Source: Candidatus Puniceispirillum marinum IMCC1322 (GTDB lineage: Bacteria > Pseudomonadota > Alphaproteobacteria > Puniceispirillales > Puniceispirillaceae). From it: a stretch of DNA of 64,000 bases. Shown in pieces: positions 12,260 through 22,770 of this stretch; within the stretch, counting starts at the first letter, position 1, and the number at the start of each line of letters is the position of its first letter. The notes below the pieces were generated by a model. It had not been told where the DNA came from. It searched no databases and saw only the letters and a list, made by a program, of their open reading frames with translations. The position numbers were made by a program, and so were the translations under genes. The DNA is taken from contig NC_014010.1 in assembly GCF_000024465.1 (NCBI RefSeq), forward strand, positions 992,001 through 1,056,000. Direction: 5' to 3'.

Positions 12260-12802
12260 ATGCGTGAGTTGTACCAGCTGTGGCCAGCGGCGCTGACCCA
12301 CGAACAGATCGATAGCATCACCACTGCCGCCCTGTGCCAGCCCGCCCGCGATGCGACCATCTTTTCGACTGCCGAATCCATGCAAGATATGCGAAGCAGC
12401 ACAATCCGCTGGATGCCAGACCAATGGGTGCAAGATCTGCTGTGGGACTATGTCCAGCAGGCCAATGCCAAGGCCTTTGACGTTGATGTGCAGAATGATG
12501 CCGAGATACAATTCACCGAATATCATGCCGCCAAGGCTGGGCATTATGACTGGCACCATGATGTGCAATGGAACGGATCAAGCCAGTCAGACAGGAAACT
12601 GTCGATTACGGTTCAACTTAGTGACCCGTCAGAATATGAAGGCGGCCTATTTGAGTTTGATGACGTCAAAACCAATGCCGATTTTGCATCCAAAGGCACT
12701 ATTCTGATTTTCCCGTCTTATCTTCGACACCGAATTTGCCCCGTTACCATGGGGACAAGACGGTCATTGGTCGCCTGGTTTAAGGGCCCCCGATGGCGAT
12801 AG
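12260..12802 (+). CDS. 2-oxoglutarate/Fe(II)-dependent oxygenase (prolyl-hydroxylase-like)
   Basis: A 180-residue dioxygenase that should couple 2-oxoglutarate decarboxylation to hydroxylation of an unknown substrate in the cytosol. The iron triad is visible: HxD in HYDWHHDVQW (about residues 95-104) and the distal His in SYLRHRICPV (about 157). The 2OG-binding Arg follows in TRRSLVAWF. SEYEGGLFEF is the typical core strand. Its weak ribosome-binding site is preceded by a short leader frame (12232-12267) with a good site, whose stop overlaps this gene's start region. Small single-domain members act on proteins or amino acids. Confidence 0.82.
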   Translation: MRELYQLWPAALTHEQIDSITTAALCQPARDATIFSTAESMQDMRSSTIRWMPDQWVQDLLWDYVQQANAKAFDVDVQNDAEIQFTEYHAAKAGHYDWHHDVQWNGSSQSDRKLSITVQLSDPSEYEGGLFEFDDVKTNADFASKGTILIFPSYLRHRICPVTMGTRRSLVAWFKGPRWR

Positions 12803-14708: not shown

Positions 14709-15392
14709 CTAGAGAGCGACATAATTTTCCAACTGGTTAACACCTCGGCGCATATGGCTTTCAATTTCTTTGCGCATCAATTCAAAATCATCACACATAG
14801 CTAGCGTTAGATAGTTTTCGTGCGCGTCCTCTATGGGGCCTGTCCGGCCATGCGCACGTTGATGAAGCGCAAGATAGAGTTGTAGGCGACCCGCCACACG
14901 TTGCCAGCTTTCCAAAAGCAATTTATGACCACAACGCTCATATACAAGCGAATGAAGCCCTACCTCGGCCTCGCTTGACGCCACATGATCATCTATCTTG
15001 AGCGTGTCCATCAACCGCGAATGGCGGGATTCCAGTTCTTCGGCAAAAGCGTGATCGCGCTTGTCCCAAATTTCCTGAAATGCAAGGGTTTCGAGTGCCG
15101 TTCTAAGAGAATAAATCTCGCGTACATCCATCACAGATAACTTAATGACGCGGGTTCCCGTAAAGGGCACTGAATGAATGAGACCTTCGGTTGCCAATTG
15201 CGCCATAGCCTCGCGCAATGGACCACGACTCACCCCAAACCTAGATGCCAGCTGGGTTTCGGTGATTTGCGAACCGCCTTCGATCTCACCACTTAAAATT
15301 GCGCGCTTGAGATTGGAGACAATCTGATCACCAAAAGTTTCCCGCCGAACTGGCAAAAGCATGTCTGCATCTTTTTTAACTATACCATGCAT
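14709..15392 (-). CDS. GntR family regulator, FCD (FadR-like) subfamily
   Basis: A 227-residue repressor or activator. It has an N-terminal winged helix (QIVSNLKRAILSGEIEGGSQ then TETQLASRFGVSRGPLREAM, residues 23-62) and a C-terminal all-helical FCD domain with metal/ligand-binding His residues (HSLVYERCGHKLL and ESHMRRG). It is the last gene of the amino-acid ABC operon, 3 bases after the aminotransferase stop. A 30-base palindrome matching the GntR TnGTnnACnA rule lies ahead of the first gene of that operon (19354-19383), so autoregulated local control is likely. Confidence 0.88.
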   Translation of the reverse strand: MHGIVKKDADMLLPVRRETFGDQIVSNLKRAILSGEIEGGSQITETQLASRFGVSRGPLREAMAQLATEGLIHSVPFTGTRVIKLSVMDVREIYSLRTALETLAFQEIWDKRDHAFAEELESRHSRLMDTLKIDDHVASSEAEVGLHSLVYERCGHKLLLESWQRVAGRLQLYLALHQRAHGRTGPIEDAHENYLTLAMCDDFELMRKEIESHMRRGVNQLENYVAL

Positions 15393-15395
15393 AAG

Positions 15396-16319
15396 CTATG
15401 TATCCTGTTCACGTTGCATCAACCAGTCATGATAAGCCGCGCTTACAGACGCTGTAACTGGCCCTGGAGCGCCTACCCCAATCACCCTACCATCCATTTT
15501 AACAACCGGGGTCACGCCGCCAAGTGTACCTGTAACAAACATCTCATCAGCGGAATAACATTCAGCAAGTGTAAAGTCTTTTTCCTTCGCTGTCTCACCT
15601 TGCGCTTGCCAGCTATCAATGACAGCGCGTTGTGTCAGACCCTTAAATGAAAACTGACCGGTCGATGTCCATATTTCCCGACCACGTACAATAAATAAAT
15701 TGGTAGAATTGCAACTGGCGACAAAGCCACGCGGGTCAAGCATAACAGCTTCATCGGCACCCGCATTAATCGCCTGAATCAAAGCCTGAATCAAATTAAG
15801 CCGGCTATGCGAATTCAGCCGTAAATCGAACACATCAGGGCCACTGGTTCGAAACGTAGAGGTGAATAGTATCAGACCCTTTTGCTTTGATTCTGGGCGC
15901 GGCGTCTTGAACTCGGCCACAATGATCAGCGTTGCTTTGCCAATGACAAATCTTGGATCCTGATTAGGGGTGCTTTTCAGCCCCCGTGAAATCATAAGAC
16001 GGATATGAACGCCATCATGCATATCATTGGCTTTTAGCGTTTCATTTAAAGCCTGTTTCAATTCTTCACGACTACGCCCGATATCGAGCGCAATTGATGT
16101 CGCCCCTTCAAACAACCGGTCAAGATGCGCCTCAAGCTGCAAAATACGCCCATTCTTCAGGCGTAGCCCCTCCCATATGCCATCGCCCAACACAAAGCCG
16201 CTGTCAAAGACCGATATGCTGGCCTCATGTCTGGGGACAAGGTCCCCATTAACATAGACAAGCACGTTTTCATTTCGCGGATCAGGAAGATAACCTTGGG
16301 CACTGGATTGATTAGACAT
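15396..16319 (-). CDS. Class IV aminotransferase-like protein, catalytic Lys apparently replaced
   Basis: A 307-residue PLP fold-type IV protein of the branched-chain/D-amino-acid aminotransferase group. Recognisable are the N-terminal VYVNGDLVPRHEASISVFD, the ladder GADEAVMLDPRGFV, and STNLFIVRG near residue 205. The segment that normally carries the PLP-binding Lys reads NSHSRLNLIQA, with Arg173 (CGG) where Lys is expected, and the usual Glu after GFV is missing. ATG 16319 follows AAGG; a TTG start at 16334 is possible. It is embedded in an amino-acid uptake operon, so it likely acts on, or senses, the imported amine. Confidence 0.82.
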   Translation of the reverse strand: MSNQSSAQGYLPDPRNENVLVYVNGDLVPRHEASISVFDSGFVLGDGIWEGLRLKNGRILQLEAHLDRLFEGATSIALDIGRSREELKQALNETLKANDMHDGVHIRLMISRGLKSTPNQDPRFVIGKATLIIVAEFKTPRPESKQKGLILFTSTFRTSGPDVFDLRLNSHSRLNLIQALIQAINAGADEAVMLDPRGFVASCNSTNLFIVRGREIWTSTGQFSFKGLTQRAVIDSWQAQGETAKEKDFTLAECYSADEMFVTGTLGGVTPVVKMDGRVIGVGAPGPVTASVSAAYHDWLMQREQDT

Positions 16320-16330
16320 GATGGGCCTTG

Positions 16331-17101
16331 TCAAAATTGAAAACGTTGGTGATCGGCTAAAAACTGCTGGGTTAGGTGGCCTTTCGGGTTTTTCAGCACC
16401 TCATCAGGTGTTCCGGTTTCATAGATGCCTCCATCTGCCAGAAATACGATACGATTGGCTACATGATAGGCAAACCCAATTTCATGGGTAACAAGAAGCA
16501 TCGTTCTACCCTCATTCGCCAACTGTTCGATAACACCCAGAACTTCGCCAACCAGATTAGGGTCAAGCGCTGATGTTGGTTCGTCAAAAAGCAAAATTTC
16601 CGGACTCATCGCCAAGGCGCGTGCGATTGCAACACGCTGCTTCTGACCTCCAGATAGATGTGATGGATAGGCGTCTGCCTTATCCTCCAGACCAACGCGC
16701 CGTAGCTCACCTATGGCCAAGGCTTTTGCTTCTGGCTTGCTCATCCCACGAACCGTCACAAGACCTTCACTCACATTGCCAACAACAGTCATATGTGGAA
16801 ATAAATTAAATTGTTGAAAAACCATGCCGACGCGCTGGCGTAACGCGCATAGATCCTTTTCTTTATATGCTTGTCCATTGGCCTGACCCGTTGCCAAGCT
16901 AATATTGCCAAATTCAATCAAGCCCTGATCAGGTTTTTCCAGCGCATTTATGCAACGCAGAAGCGTGCTTTTTCCAGACCCGGAAGCACCTATTATTGCG
17001 ATACGGTCTCCTGCCTCAACTTGCAGATCAATCCCAGAAAAGACTCTGTTTTCGCTGAATGATTTTCCAAGACCGGACAGTTTGAGTAATGGTTGCGTCA
17101 T
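16331..17101 (-). CDS. Polar amino-acid ABC transporter ATPase (GlnQ/HisP-like)
   Basis: A 256-residue ATPase with Walker A GASGSGKST (about 37-45), the Q-loop QQFNLFPHMTVVGNV, signature LSGGQKQRVAIARALA, Walker B LLFDEPTSALDP and the switch His in VTHEIGFA. These features, including the LFPHMTV block, are diagnostic of the polar amino-acid uptake family (PAAT). It lies 2 bases after the second permease gene and drives the two permeases upstream. The exact amino acid is unknown. Confidence 0.92.
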   Translation of the reverse strand: MTQPLLKLSGLGKSFSENRVFSGIDLQVEAGDRIAIIGASGSGKSTLLRCINALEKPDQGLIEFGNISLATGQANGQAYKEKDLCALRQRVGMVFQQFNLFPHMTVVGNVSEGLVTVRGMSKPEAKALAIGELRRVGLEDKADAYPSHLSGGQKQRVAIARALAMSPEILLFDEPTSALDPNLVGEVLGVIEQLANEGRTMLLVTHEIGFAYHVANRIVFLADGGIYETGTPDEVLKNPKGHLTQQFLADHQRFQF

Positions 17102-17103
17102 AC

Positions 17104-17769
17104 CTAGTCACTCCTCGAAAGATGACGCTCGACAGCGTAGGTTACACGAACCAAAGGATACAATATTATCATAAACAGCGCGGCCACAACAGTGTAGACC
17201 TCAAGGGGGTTGAAGTTGAGCGATGCAATCAACTTACCTTGCTGAAGCATTTCGACATATGCCACAACCGAAGCCAATGTTGACATCTTGAAAATTTCTA
17301 TCCCCCTGTTGGTAAGTGCGGGCACGATGCGCCGGATAGCTTGAGGTAAGACAATTCTGCGTAGAACTTGTAATCCGTTCATGCCGATGGCTTTTGCCGC
17401 CTCCCACTGGCCTGGTTCAATCGACTGAATACCGCCACGGTAAATTTCTGCCGAATATGCCGCCGAATTCAATGAAATGCCTAAAATAGCGGCAATAAAG
17501 GGACTGATCTCAACAGGTGCGAGGATTGGCAAGGCATAATAGAACCACAATATCTGTACAAGCACGGGCGTATTGCGAAAAAACTCGACAAAGGCTGTTG
17601 ATGCCCAACGCACAGCTTTGGTTCGTGACCGCCGTCCAAGCGCTACAAATAAGCCAAGACTCATACCCAAGATCAGACAGACTATGAAAAGCCGAAGCGT
17701 GCCACCAAGCCCCACTGCCAAAGCCCACCAATTGTCAAAAACACTCTGAAAATTCCAATAATATGTCAT
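17104..17769 (-). CDS. Polar amino-acid ABC permease 2 (HisM/GlnP-like)
   Basis: A 221-residue permease with about five membrane helices. RLFIVCLILGMSLGLFVAL is followed by FRNTPVLVQILWFYYALPIL, a family signature, and by the EAA loop QWEAAKAIGMNGLQVLRRIV near residue 140. It forms a heterodimeric channel with the next-upstream permease, whose stop overlaps its start as ATGA. It is the third gene of the operon. Confidence 0.9.
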   Translation of the reverse strand: MTYYWNFQSVFDNWWALAVGLGGTLRLFIVCLILGMSLGLFVALGRRSRTKAVRWASTAFVEFFRNTPVLVQILWFYYALPILAPVEISPFIAAILGISLNSAAYSAEIYRGGIQSIEPGQWEAAKAIGMNGLQVLRRIVLPQAIRRIVPALTNRGIEIFKMSTLASVVAYVEMLQQGKLIASLNFNPLEVYTVVAALFMIILYPLVRVTYAVERHLSRSD

Positions 17770-18440
17770 AGTGAAAATTCCCCCGAACGGGTAAGGCGCC
17801 GTTCGAAGCGTGAAGCTAGGAAGCTGAAAATAGAAATGGTCACAAAGTAAATCAGCGCCACCACTGTAAAGACTTCAAGTGGGCGGAATGTTTTCTGCGC
17901 GAGTTCATTGGCCTGAAACAACAGATCAGCGTATGACACAGTCGCCACAAGCGTTGTGGTTTTCATCAATTCGATCGAACGTTCCATCATCGAGGGGAAC
18001 ATGCGTTTGACAGCCTGCGGCAGAATGATGCGGCGCATAGCCTGATTATATCTCATGCCAATTGCTTTGGCGGCTTCCCATTGACCATGTTCAATCGATA
18101 CGATTCCAGCGCGAAATATTTCAGCAAAAAACGCACCACTTTGAATGGTGAATGTAAGTGCAGCGGCAAGAAAGGGTGTCATCTCTACCGCCAGTACAAT
18201 AGGCAAGCCAAAGAAGAACCAGAATAACTGAACCAGAGGCGGCGTGGTGCGAAACACCTCAATAATTACATCTGCGGGAAACCTTACCCAACGGCGGGAT
18301 GACAAACGCGCGAATGCCAAGACAAGACCGACCACAAGCCCCCCTGACAAGGCCGTCGCCGTCAACACCAAGGTGTTACGGAAACCGGCAAGTAAAAAAC
18401 CAGTTTCCGTTAATACAGGTATAAAGTCCCATTCATACAT
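17766..18440 (-). CDS. Polar amino-acid ABC permease 1 (HisQ/GlnP-like)
   Basis: A 224-residue permease homologous to the one at 17104. The blocks FRTTPPLVQLFWFFFGLPIV (about 65-84) and QWEAAKAIGMRYNQAMRRII (about 140) correspond to the signature and EAA loop. It begins 15 bases after the binding-protein gene stop. Together the two permeases, ATPase and binding protein make a complete PAAT importer. Confidence 0.9.
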   Translation of the reverse strand: MYEWDFIPVLTETGFLLAGFRNTLVLTATALSGGLVVGLVLAFARLSSRRWVRFPADVIIEVFRTTPPLVQLFWFFFGLPIVLAVEMTPFLAAALTFTIQSGAFFAEIFRAGIVSIEHGQWEAAKAIGMRYNQAMRRIILPQAVKRMFPSMMERSIELMKTTTLVATVSYADLLFQANELAQKTFRPLEVFTVVALIYFVTISIFSFLASRFERRLTRSGEFSL

Positions 18441-18455
18441 AGAATTTAAACAGGG

Positions 18456-19292
18456 CTACAGAAGTTCTTTGACGATGGCGGGAGCCGCTTTTGGATCCAA
18501 CCCGAAACCACTTAGAAAATCTTCATACCAAGTCTGAATTTGTCGTGACTCATACCAACTCTTCAATTGGCCATCGACAAAATTTACAAATTCGGTATCG
18601 CCCTTACGAACCGCGGCACTGGTTGGATTCGACTTTGTCGGTGTTGGCACAATAATCTTGCCGCGACCCAAACGTTTGCGCGCGGCAATCAATGGCGGAT
18701 GGAACAAGCAGACAGCGTCAACGCGGCCTGACTGGAAAGCGGCAATAGCTTCGGTATTGCCCGGATAACGCTGAATATCTGCATTACCAGTATTTTCGGT
18801 CAGAAATGCATCCATGCTGGTGGCCTGAGGCACGGAAATCTTGATGCCTGCCTTATTTAGATCCTGCCAGCTTGACACGTCCAGATCTTCTCTTGCCATA
18901 ACGGCAAGTGAATAGAACAACAATGGTGATACCGGAAAGTCAGCCGCTTCCTTTCGTTTTGCCGTGGCATCCAACACAAACATAATATCGATCTTGTTAC
19001 TCTGCAACGCGGCAACAGCCGTGCCCCAGGTAACCTCGACAGGCTCAAACTCAACACCAAGCGCGGCCGCCATGGCCATACCTGCTGAGACACCAACTCC
19101 AGATGTCCATTTGCCAGTGGCTGGATCTTTCGAATACCAAGGCGGTGCCTGCGTAACCCCTACTCTTAAAGAGCCGCGTGATTTGATTGACGACATTGAT
19201 CCTGCAGCGAATGCTGGCATTACTCCTGATAATCCAATTGTTGCAACAGTTGCACTGGCAACCATTGTAAATGATCGACGGTTGAGCTTCAT
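18456..19292 (-). CDS. Amino-acid ABC substrate-binding protein, family 3
   Basis: A 278-residue periplasmic receptor. The signal peptide MKLNRRSFTMVASATVATIG has an RR pair and may use Tat or Sec, with cleavage near MPAFA|AG. The mature domain shows SLRVGVTQAPPWYSKD and DIMFVLDATAKRKEAADF, the family-3 pattern. It is the first gene of the operon that continues with two permeases, the ATPase, the aminotransferase and the GntR regulator. A perfect 30-base operator-like palindrome lies 62-91 bases ahead of its start. Confidence 0.9.
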   Translation of the reverse strand: MKLNRRSFTMVASATVATIGLSGVMPAFAAGSMSSIKSRGSLRVGVTQAPPWYSKDPATGKWTSGVGVSAGMAMAAALGVEFEPVEVTWGTAVAALQSNKIDIMFVLDATAKRKEAADFPVSPLLFYSLAVMAREDLDVSSWQDLNKAGIKISVPQATSMDAFLTENTGNADIQRYPGNTEAIAAFQSGRVDAVCLFHPPLIAARKRLGRGKIIVPTPTKSNPTSAAVRKGDTEFVNFVDGQLKSWYESRQIQTWYEDFLSGFGLDPKAAPAIVKELL

Positions 19293-19488: not shown

Positions 19489-22400
19489 CTAGCGCATCAG
19501 CAAATCGATATTGCCACCTGACGCGGTCATATCACGGCAGATATGCTTTTCCTGTTGCAGCCATACATGGCCGCCCTGATCGGTGATGAAAGGGATCACC
19601 CGCTGGCTAGAACGATGCAGCGCCTTGCGCAATGCCGCCAGATCGACATGATGATCGACATGCGTTATCACCACGTCGAAATTGTCATGATCCGGTATCG
19701 CCGTAACTTCCTGCACGCTATTGCCATGGTCACGTGCGATCTGTGATAGGCGGCCACGGGTTTGTGCATCCGGATGACAGACAAGCACCGTACCATGGCG
19801 CGGCATGATGCTATAGCTATTACGCTCACCTGACGGCCCCGGCAGTAGCACCGGAGACAACATTGCATCACCACTATGGCTCGTTTCCGGCATCGTCATG
19901 AAAGCCCGCAGATAGGCACCCCCACCAGCCTTTGGCCCGGTTCCTGATAACCCATGTCCGCCGAAAGGCTGTGCGCCAACAACGGCTCCAATCTGATTAC
20001 GGTTTATATAGACATTACCGACATTGATCATGTCGCTGACAGCTTTGATATTGGCGTCAATGCGGCTGTGCATGGCAAAGGTTAACCCGTAACCAGATTT
20101 GTTTATCGCCTCAACGACATTGGCCTCGTCGCCAGCCTTATAGGTGGCGACATGCAGAACCGGACCAAAAATTTCGCTTTCCAGACTCTCGATACCGGCA
20201 AGCTTGATAATCGATGGCGCGCAAAAACACCCCAAAGTAGGCGCTGTGCCTTGCCAGACCAGACGACCATCATGCCGTGCCGCGGCCACATGCTGATCGA
20301 TCCGCGTTTTGGCATCCTGATCAATGATCGGGCCAATGTCGGTGTCCATATCGGCAGCATCACCAACCTTTAGCATCGCCGCCGCCGCGCTGATCATGCT
20401 GATTAAATCAGCGGCAATATCGTCCTGAATATAAAGTATCCGCAACGCAGAACATCGTTGTCCTGCCGAGCGAAAAGCCGAGGTCAAAATATCATCAACC
20501 GCGCGTTCAAGTAGAGCTGAAGCATCAACAATCATTGCGTTGAGTCCGCCTGTCTCGGCAATAAGCGGCGCATGTGGCTTGCCAGACTGGGCGATAGCCC
20601 CCTCGATAATCTTGGCGGTCGCGGTTGAACCGGTAAAGACCACCATATCGGCCTGTCCCGCCTTGGTCAGCATGTCCCCAACCGCACCGCCACCGCATAA
20701 CAGGTGCAAGGCATCGTCTGGCACCCCGGCTTTATACATCAGCGAGATGGCCAAGGCCGCAATCCGCGGGGTTTGTGCGGCCGGTTTTGCCAACACCGCA
20801 TTACCAGCCGCCAAGGCCGCCACGACCTGTCCGGTAAAAATAGCCAGTGGGAAATTCCAAGGCGAAATAGCAACAACCGTACCCCGCGCCCGGGAATTGG
20901 CACCTAACTGCCGCGTCTGCACAGCATAATAGCGACAGAAATCAACCGCCTCACGCACTTCACCTACGGCATCATCAATGGTTTTGCCCGCTTCATGCAC
21001 AAGCAGATGATAAAGCCTGTCTGCTGCCTGTTCATAATGGTCAGCAATATGATCAACTATGTCAGCGCGCTGTGGTGCTGACAAATGTTGCCATGACGCA
21101 TTATCCGCCTGATCAAATGCGATAGCAACATCTTCACGGCTTGCTTGATCTGGTCGGGAGGGCATATCAGGTGACGCAATAGCTTTGGCAAAGCCACGCA
21201 CAGACTCGACATCTTCTTCATCAAATCCACGACTGTTTTGGCGCCATGGTGCAAACATCTGCACGCCCGTTGCCAGTAAAGCCTTAGCGTTATCGATCTT
21301 GGTATAGGGATCAGTTACTAAATCCTCGATACCAACCTGAACATCCGCCAGCTTGTTCATAAAGGAAGAACTCGCGCCATTCTCCAGAATCCGGCGAACA
21401 AGATAGGCAAGCAAATCTTGATGACAGCCCACCGGCGCATATACACGAAGCGGTGCCGAGGTAATCTTGCTGAGCTCATTATGTACCGCATCACCCATGC
21501 CGTGAAGCTTTTGTAACTCATAGGAAGCTGGCTTGATGCTATGAGCCAGATGGGTTACCGCCGCCAGCGTATAGGCATTATGGCTGGCAAATTGTGGCAG
21601 GAAATGCTGCGACGCTGTCATCAGGCGTTTAGCATGTGCCAGATAGGCCAGATCGGTGTGATTCTTTGACGTATAGACAGGGAAATCAGCGAGCCCCTTT
21701 TCCTGGGCAATCTTGATTTCCGTATCCCAATAGGCGCCTTTGACCAACCTTACAGGTATGCGGACAGCATGACGTTGTGCCTGTTGTTCCAGCCAATCGA
21801 TCACGGCGCCAGCATGGCGGGCATAGGCCTGAACCACAATGCCTATACCAGACCAGCCACGTAATTGCGGATGCGCCAACAGGCGTTCATAAACATATAG
21901 GCTGGGTTTCAGCCTGCTATATTCTTCAGCATCGATGGTCAGTGGGATATTATGCTGACGCGCCGCTAGTGCCAATTGCACCACCCTATCGATTAGCGCA
22001 TTACAGCTGGCTGACCAGTAACGAGTCTGCAACCGGCACGATAGCGCAGACAACTTGACCGACACACCGCTATTGTGATTGACATCATCTGCCTTGGCTT
22101 TGGCACCAGCACAGGCAATAGCATGCGCATAAGCGGCAAAATAGCGATCGCAATCATCTGCCGAGCGCGCAGCTTCACCCAGCATGTCGAAGGAGTATAG
22201 TTTATCACCATCATTAAGATGCGTAACAGCCGCTTCGATGGTTTCAGCAAAAACAAACTGTCCACCCATCTGCCGCATGGCGGTTTCAATCGCGCGGCGC
22301 ACAGCCGGAACACCCAGCTTTGACACCATGGCTTTGAGCCCCTTGTCACGTTGTCCGCGGACAATACCACTGGCCAGTTCTAGTGCCGTCTCCAGACCCC

Positions 22401-22770
22401 GAACAAAGCCGGTGGCATCTGCATCAAGCCAATGTCCCGAAGCCAGCTTGTCAAAAATCAGAAAGTCACGCGTTGCGGCATCGGGAACACGAAGCAGAGC
22501 TTCGGCCATTTCCATGATCATGCGTCCCTCGGCGGTAGATAATTTATACACAGCCATTATCTTTTCTGCCGAAAACAGGCTGCCAGCATCGCGCGCCACA
22601 GCGACAATCTGTCGGGCCTGTTCGAGCACAGTATCGCGGCTTGCGTTGTCCAGAACCGGATTTCGACAAAAGCCAGACACAAGCGCATCCTCATCGGGTA
22701 CCGGCGCCACTGCCGGAAAGACGCCCGCGCCCCATGATACATCGTCTGATACAGAATGTACGCCGTGCAT
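19489..22770 (-). CDS. putA: Bifunctional proline dehydrogenase / P5C dehydrogenase
   Basis: A 1093-residue enzyme oxidising proline to glutamate in two steps, with FAD in the first domain and NAD in the second. The PRODH barrel spans about 175-470 (DKLYSFDMLGEAA, SVKLSAL, RLVKGAYWDTEIK, VYAPVGCHQDLLAYLVRRIL). The P5CDH domain spans about 520-960 (AISPWNFPLAIFTGQ, then ETGGLNAMIVD and the catalytic Cys in SAGQRCSALR). It lacks the N-terminal ribbon-helix-helix of regulatory PutA, so control falls to the divergent Lrp gene. The C-terminal 110 residues form an extra small domain. Confidence 0.96.
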   Translation of the reverse strand: MHGVHSVSDDVSWGAGVFPAVAPVPDEDALVSGFCRNPVLDNASRDTVLEQARQIVAVARDAGSLFSAEKIMAVYKLSTAEGRMIMEMAEALLRVPDAATRDFLIFDKLASGHWLDADATGFVRGLETALELASGIVRGQRDKGLKAMVSKLGVPAVRRAIETAMRQMGGQFVFAETIEAAVTHLNDGDKLYSFDMLGEAARSADDCDRYFAAYAHAIACAGAKAKADDVNHNSGVSVKLSALSCRLQTRYWSASCNALIDRVVQLALAARQHNIPLTIDAEEYSRLKPSLYVYERLLAHPQLRGWSGIGIVVQAYARHAGAVIDWLEQQAQRHAVRIPVRLVKGAYWDTEIKIAQEKGLADFPVYTSKNHTDLAYLAHAKRLMTASQHFLPQFASHNAYTLAAVTHLAHSIKPASYELQKLHGMGDAVHNELSKITSAPLRVYAPVGCHQDLLAYLVRRILENGASSSFMNKLADVQVGIEDLVTDPYTKIDNAKALLATGVQMFAPWRQNSRGFDEEDVESVRGFAKAIASPDMPSRPDQASREDVAIAFDQADNASWQHLSAPQRADIVDHIADHYEQAADRLYHLLVHEAGKTIDDAVGEVREAVDFCRYYAVQTRQLGANSRARGTVVAISPWNFPLAIFTGQVVAALAAGNAVLAKPAAQTPRIAALAISLMYKAGVPDDALHLLCGGGAVGDMLTKAGQADMVVFTGSTATAKIIEGAIAQSGKPHAPLIAETGGLNAMIVDASALLERAVDDILTSAFRSAGQRCSALRILYIQDDIAADLISMISAAAAMLKVGDAADMDTDIGPIIDQDAKTRIDQHVAAARHDGRLVWQGTAPTLGCFCAPSIIKLAGIESLESEIFGPVLHVATYKAGDEANVVEAINKSGYGLTFAMHSRIDANIKAVSDMINVGNVYINRNQIGAVVGAQPFGGHGLSGTGPKAGGGAYLRAFMTMPETSHSGDAMLSPVLLPGPSGERNSYSIMPRHGTVLVCHPDAQTRGRLSQIARDHGNSVQEVTAIPDHDNFDVVITHVDHHVDLAALRKALHRSSQRVIPFITDQGGHVWLQQEKHICRDMTASGGNIDLLMR

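Follow-up and report, generated by a model that had tools for sequence, protein, structure and literature searches.

A protein of the class IV aminotransferase fold is routinely annotated as a branched-chain or D-amino-acid aminotransferase. In the D-amino-acid transaminase Halhy, Lys143 is paired with Tyr147, which contacts the phenolic oxygen of PLP, while Glu176 contacts the pyridine N1 and Arg52, Ile202, Thr203 and Thr239 contact the phosphate (excerpts of PMC8401098). According to excerpts of PMC11673721, DtolTA carries a Glu at the place matching Ser202 of the protein described here. Asn in the column of the Schiff-base Lys is already present in the PDB, in entry 7z79 ("aminotransferase-like protein from Variovorax paradoxus") and in entry 9j32, its "mutant N174K"; the depositors evidently noticed the Asn. 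In open-access PubMed Central, a scope that leaves subscription papers mostly outside, no paper recognisable as dealing with 7z79, 9j32 or Asn-type class IV proteins was found.

We analysed a 64,000-nucleotide stretch of the genome of Candidatus Puniceispirillum marinum IMCC1322 (contig NC_014010.1, positions 992,001 to 1,056,000), referred to as the window. It contains an open reading frame of 307 aa from ATG on the minus strand (15396-16319), which the ORF list begins at a TTG five codons upstream. A first-pass annotation, made from the letters alone, had described this gene as intact and well formed and its product as a class IV aminotransferase; the reading frame is indeed complete, and the fold is confirmed by Pfam Aminotran_4 (PF01063, E 4.3e-42) and by Foldseek. 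Eighteen NCBIfam class IV families (IlvE, DAAT, ADC lyase and others) match the protein at E values up to 0.001, none of them above its curated cut-off; for example, TIGR01122 scores 195 against a cut-off of 245.55 and TIGR01121 150.3 against 277.45. The same genome has three further class IV genes, two of which align with both Lys and Glu, and the third shows both by eye. Judged by alignment, the gene belongs to a lysine-less (Asn-type) branch of the fold. The gene and its relevant residues are as follows.

15396..16319, minus strand: Asn-type (lysine-less) class IV aminotransferase-fold protein, 307 aa
15813..15815, minus strand: Asn169, codon AAT, where the PLP Schiff-base Lys aligns; equivalent to residue 174 in 7z79/9j32
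15801..15803, minus strand: Arg173, codon CGG, in the Lys+4 column; corresponds to Halhy Tyr147 (beside Lys143)
15714..15716, minus strand: Ser202, codon AGT, in the column of the Glu contacting pyridine N1
16116..16118, minus strand: Arg68, phosphate-cup Arg (role from excerpts of PMC8401098); R in 149 of 149 Asn-type proteins
15633..15635, minus strand: Thr229 of G-L-T, phosphate-cup Thr (role from excerpts of PMC8401098); T in 149 of 149 Asn-type proteins
15525..15527, minus strand: Thr265 of a G-T turn, phosphate-cup Thr (role from excerpts of PMC8401098); 146 T and 3 S among 149 Asn-type proteins
15975..15977, minus strand: Lys115, the most conserved Lys of Asn-type proteins; 145 K and 4 R of 149

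The best PDB match is 7z79 (phmmer E 4.2e-118), and chains of 7z79 and 9j32 take the first eight Foldseek ranks. Although it comes from another organism, 7z79 is 60% identical in the Foldseek alignment and has the same Asn and the same NSHSRLN and SCNSTN segments; residue 174 of both entries aligns with Asn169 (offset +5). The archaeal-type branched-chain aminotransferases 5mqz, 5cm0 and 5e25 share the fold (34-36% identity in Foldseek alignments) but differ in the two critical columns: in ungapped alignments their Schiff-base Lys falls on Asn169 and the Tyr four residues on falls on Arg173. MAFFT alignments concur in placing Asn169 in the Lys column. The D-amino-acid transaminases bsDAAT and Halhy are likewise of fold type IV and have corresponding phosphate-binding residues, but keep the Lys and the Glu that the window protein has lost. 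From the alignments, the fold and the phosphate cup (Arg, Thr, Thr) of a PLP-dependent fold type IV transaminase are present; the Schiff-base Lys and the N1 Glu are absent, being replaced by Asn169 and Ser202.

The first-pass annotation had placed Arg173 on the Schiff-base Lys. Its codon, CGG, was read correctly, and so was the lack of the usual Glu in GFVASCN, where Ser202 occupies the Glu column. The placement itself has to be corrected, as the branched-chain aminotransferase and MAFFT alignments, together with the name "mutant N174K" of 9j32, assign that column to Asn169. The loss of Lys and Glu thus stands, and Arg as the residue replacing Lys does not. Arg173 remains noteworthy, since Arg or Lys fills this column in all 149 Asn-type proteins. 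An AlphaFold2 model computed from 28 window and locus sequences has a pLDDT of 82.7, with residues 162-172 below 50 and a helix at 171-185.

A scan of species genomes yielded 180 stretches encoding a relative, of which the best 80 (64-79% identity) were used. More distant relatives were taken from 41 genomes (the window's own and its relatives), 289 class genomes and 398 phylum genomes, with up to 30 loci each; class and phylum searches were run at 1e-60 and 1e-45, respectively, and sequences between these thresholds and the Lys types lie outside the sample. Deduplication reduced the set from 226 to 178 distinct proteins, which were aligned; the 7z79 and 9j32 sequences were kept outside alignment and tree. 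Column 169 holds N in 149 of them and K in 29, and no other residue; these 29, two encoded in the window's genome and one top hit from each of 27 relatives, make a narrow outgroup. Column 169 itself gives the two groups their names, and they separate by score and by column 202 too. N rows score at least 229 bits against the window protein and K rows at most 113. At column 202, 95 of the Asn-type proteins have S and 54 have T, and 29 of 29 Lys-type proteins have E; column 173 is R (96) or K (53) in the Asn type and L (26) or W (3) in the Lys type. Because 149 proteins share Asn169 and are set apart also by bit score and column 202, the change is neither chance nor error.

In the Asn type, 68 columns are at least 97% one residue (n=149). 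Residues that are fixed or nearly so there but do not prevail in the Lys type include Trp49, Arg53, His105, Arg107, Lys115, Gln120, Glu136, Ser172, Asn204 and Ser219. When a surrogate catalytic Lys was sought among the 149 proteins, no Lys column proved universal; the best candidate, Lys115 (145 of 149), was rejected as a universal surrogate, being Arg in 4.

A phylogenetic tree was constructed by a quick method from 105 of the 178 proteins (27 near ones including the window's, 68 distant, 10 Lys-type); the tree tool flags the outgroup and L197 as long branches. The Asn type forms one clade (SH-aLRT 98). Within it, 41 Arg173/Ser202 rows make up a derived clade (SH-aLRT 99) located beside and among Lys173/Thr202 rows; L129, with Arg173/Thr202, falls outside this clade. 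The window protein clusters with Rhizobiaceae and Jiella rows, with a support of only 80. Among 40 relatives of the window's genome, two (G017 and G035) have a match better than 1e-32, both with Asn169/Lys173, and the best match in 27 others has Lys169. The column was read in these 29 genomes; of the remaining 11, one is without a match and the others do not exceed 31% identity. GC content is 48.5% in the operon vs 44.7% in the window. The window gene was likely acquired horizontally. Across the class, an Asn-type protein occurs in 35 of 289 genomes at 1e-60, with the Asn itself confirmed in 34 (G124 left out).

The gene had also been assigned to an amino-acid uptake operon, and the neighbouring genes agree with this, an 11-bp gap separating it from the importer ATPase gene:

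18456..19292, minus strand: solute-binding protein; matches to NCBIfam models of amino-acid binding proteins all fall below cut-off; the L071 member of its cluster is SBP_bac_3
17766..18440, minus strand: ABC permease; clusters with L019:2262-2936 (BPD_transp_1)
17104..17769, minus strand: ABC permease; clusters with L019:2262-2936 (BPD_transp_1)
16331..17101, minus strand: amino-acid-type ABC transporter ATPase, same operon
14709..15392, minus strand: GntR-type regulator; matches NCBIfam GntR models below their cut-offs; the L061 member of its cluster has GntR and FCD

The order is thus solute-binding protein, two permeases, ATPase, aminotransferase-fold gene and, after 3 bp, the GntR-type regulator, which makes the aminotransferase-fold gene the last enzyme-type gene of the importer operon.

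Gene neighbourhoods were compared in 141 loci, i.e. the 80 closest relatives, 60 loci from the wider searches and the window; since the 80 were chosen by closeness to the window gene, they are biased to its context. Counts come from a six-frame search, as gene calling misses 8 of the 141 focal genes. Loci were divided into type NRS (Asn, Arg173, Ser202; 94 loci) and type NKT (Asn, Lys173, Thr202; 44 loci). An ABC context, defined as same-strand matches to a permease and an ATPase no more than 5 kb away, is found in 77 loci including the window, 69 of them also with a solute-binding protein. In 39 loci a gene of the PF19798 family lies on the same strand within 300 bp, with 5-165 bp between the matched parts. 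No locus has both contexts and 25 have neither; at least three of these 25 (L031, L037, L040) have less than 1.2 kb upstream. The ABC context belongs to 74 of 94 NRS and 2 of 44 NKT loci and one unclassified locus, the PF19798 context to 8 NRS, 29 NKT and 2 others. A GntR match within 5 kb occurs in 53 of 94 NRS and 1 of 44 NKT loci, some loci being short.

PF19798 is treated as a sulfotransferase family (excerpts of PMC12506393 and PMC11625862); the word "aminotransferase" is absent from PMC12506393. The family was named on the L207 member (L207:10335-11072, E 9.3e-72), the other 38 loci being assigned by similarity to it. In 42 sulfotransferase proteins W-S-G-P-R-N-x-S-T is fixed, and R-x-P-x5-S is present in 41; we take motifs of this type to be PAPS-binding.

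Other neighbours were considered as well. Hydantoinase A and B genes lie near the gene in loci of the ABC-operon type (e.g. L061:9001-11013, L066:6921-8585); their nearest NCBIfam models are caprolactamase subunits, below cut-off, and in each of the 18 clustered loci HyuB and the class IV gene are on opposite strands. A hydantoinase pathway as the defining one was rejected, as HyuB is within 5 kb in only 19 of 94 NRS and 1 of 44 NKT loci. Aconitase X and the PutA-like neighbour were rejected as substrate hints because they concern few loci. The latter is an ORF of 1093 aa (19489-22770, minus) that precedes the operon and shares its strand; by eye it is a PutA-like proline/P5C dehydrogenase, and it clusters with no neighbour gene of other loci. 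A 180-aa ORF at 12260-12802 (plus strand) resembles, by eye, a 2-oxoglutarate/Fe(II) oxygenase of the prolyl-hydroxylase kind.

Because the sampled branch lacks both defining residues throughout and has no universal Lys column, the window protein is, as far as sequence comparison tells, not an ordinary PLP transaminase. It is probably repurposed rather than broken, since its relatives share the change and keep the remodelled pocket. The first-pass suggestion of a catalytically altered or a binding protein gains support from the loss of Lys and Glu, the fold, the conservation and the single clade. We consider it rather likely that the pocket was rebuilt to work without an internal aldimine and that it binds and processes an imported amino-acid-like compound. 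With the Schiff-base Lys and the N1 Glu replaced, the old pocket would have been remade as a different site, in which the phosphate cup was kept and a basic residue became fixed at Lys+4. This site would bind a small amino-acid-like compound, possibly phosphorylated or sulfated, or PLP/PMP non-covalently, and then process it; in the window lineage, the compound would be the cargo of the adjacent ABC importer, under GntR control. The Asn-type clade, the phosphate cup, the type-specific fixed residues, the ABC context and 7z79/9j32 all count for a repurposed site. Against it count the 25 of 141 loci in neither context and the low pLDDT (<50) of segment 162-172, which holds Asn169. If chemistry indeed proceeds without an internal aldimine, this would be a clear case of a cofactor-enzyme fold repurposed after loss of its anchor residue. 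Lysine-less proteins are likely misnamed wherever annotation follows the fold alone.

A conserved pocket would be equally expected of a conserved binding protein, the main rival of a repurposed enzyme. The protein might be a non-catalytic ligand-binding or sensor pseudoenzyme that reports an imported amino acid or PLP to the importer or to the GntR regulator. The loss of two key residues and the location of the gene between those of the importer ATPase and the GntR-type regulator would suit such a role. However, the GntR neighbour is inconstant, 39 of 141 loci have the sulfotransferase and no importer, and the fixed polar and charged residues suggest chemistry; we regard a sensor as unlikely.

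We find it distinctly improbable that the protein is still a transaminase or half-transaminase, holding PLP/PMP non-covalently by the phosphate cup and employing another base, e.g. Lys115 or Arg173. Retention of the cup and near-invariance of Lys115 would allow this, but the N1 Glu is lost in 149 of 149 proteins, and Lys115 is not strictly kept.

The catalytic Lys might instead have shifted by four residues, the ancestral Asn type using Lys173, on the helix that in branched-chain aminotransferases carries the PLP-contacting Tyr, and the window lineage later swapping it for Arg, with only the charge kept. This would agree with the restriction of column 173 to Lys and Arg, with the nesting of the Arg173/Ser202 clade among Lys173 rows and with the Lys+4 residue of Halhy contacting the PLP phenolic oxygen (excerpts of PMC8401098). 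Yet Arg forms no aldimine, therefore the mechanism would be lost again in the window protein, and the position of L129 outside the derived clade implies that the swap is not unique. For a Lys173-type protein, too, the nearest PDB entries are 7z79 and 9j32, hence no Lys173-type structure was found in the PDB. We consider such a shift very unlikely.

A decayed gene, sequencing error or misalignment can practically be dismissed, given Asn169 in 149 distinct proteins, the crystal structure 7z79 of a homologue that has this Asn too, and the comparison with L001, where identity is 80% for the protein but 68% for the nucleotides (dN about 0.17; dS is saturated, therefore no dN/dS value is given).

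The PF19798 context was also followed at the level of whole genomes. Among 289 genomes of the class, 35 have the Asn-type protein (1e-60), 27 have PF19798 and 25 have both (Fisher 8e-26, with shared ancestry ignored). PF19798 is present without the protein in G093 and G299, the latter being a 57-position match. In the 15 kb around the PF19798 gene of G093 (L229), no relative of the window protein is seen at E 1e-5. Ten class genomes have the protein without PF19798: six of them show the ABC context (G000, G084, G161, G242, G305, G318), G147 and G264 lie outside it, and G124 and G326 are outside this context count. Among 398 genomes of the phylum, a sample overlapping with that of the class, 41 have the protein (1e-45), 37 have PF19798 and 36 both (P 1.3e-44, with shared ancestry ignored); PF19798 is alone in G642 and the protein in G000, G147, G305, G527 and G634. 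The two genes lie on separate contigs, or at a distance of over 0.8 Mb, in 4 of the 25 class genomes and 9 of the 36 phylum genomes that have both (G193 belongs to both sets). Since protein and PF19798 also co-occur unlinked, their link is more than a shared operon. The PF19798 model that matched 27 class genomes has no match in the window's genome, and none in 14 control genomes either.

This tight link with a sulfotransferase gives a concrete handle on the role of the Asn-type protein. Plants carry proteins named "branched-chain-amino-acid aminotransferase-like protein", in which a sulfotransferase-like portion is joined to a class IV one. Three ORFs longer than 450 aa were considered as sulfotransferase fusions and left out of the counts; in L201 the genes lie in different frames. 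A function for the Asn-type/PF19798 pair was not found in the open-access PubMed Central literature.

The PF19798 pairing and the choline-sulfatase neighbours in L016, L181 and L198 suggest a possible, still doubtful, extension, which is a lead and not a result. The Asn type may be a new enzyme family whose substrate is a small, sulfate-esterified amino-acid-like compound, which PF19798 would make or tailor in many branches and which the window lineage would import by its ABC operon without PF19798; the old phosphate cup may hold the sulfate or phosphate of the substrate. In these three loci (L016:3151-4740, L181:10464-12005, L198:1934-3472), one NRS and two NKT with no PF19798 nearby, a gene above the NCBIfam choline-sulfatase cut-off directly adjoins the Asn-type gene, and in L181 and L198 a gene for a Cys/Met-metabolism PLP enzyme is also close. 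Across the loci, about 2.0 Mb in all, no other match of the choline-sulfatase model is as strong (at least 940 bits); five other loci (L030, L072, L078, L080, L191) have weaker sulfatase matches (80-222 bits) some 3-9 kb off. The one sulfatase gene in the window's genome is far from the operon, and its product is 41-47% identical to those of L016, L181 and L198.
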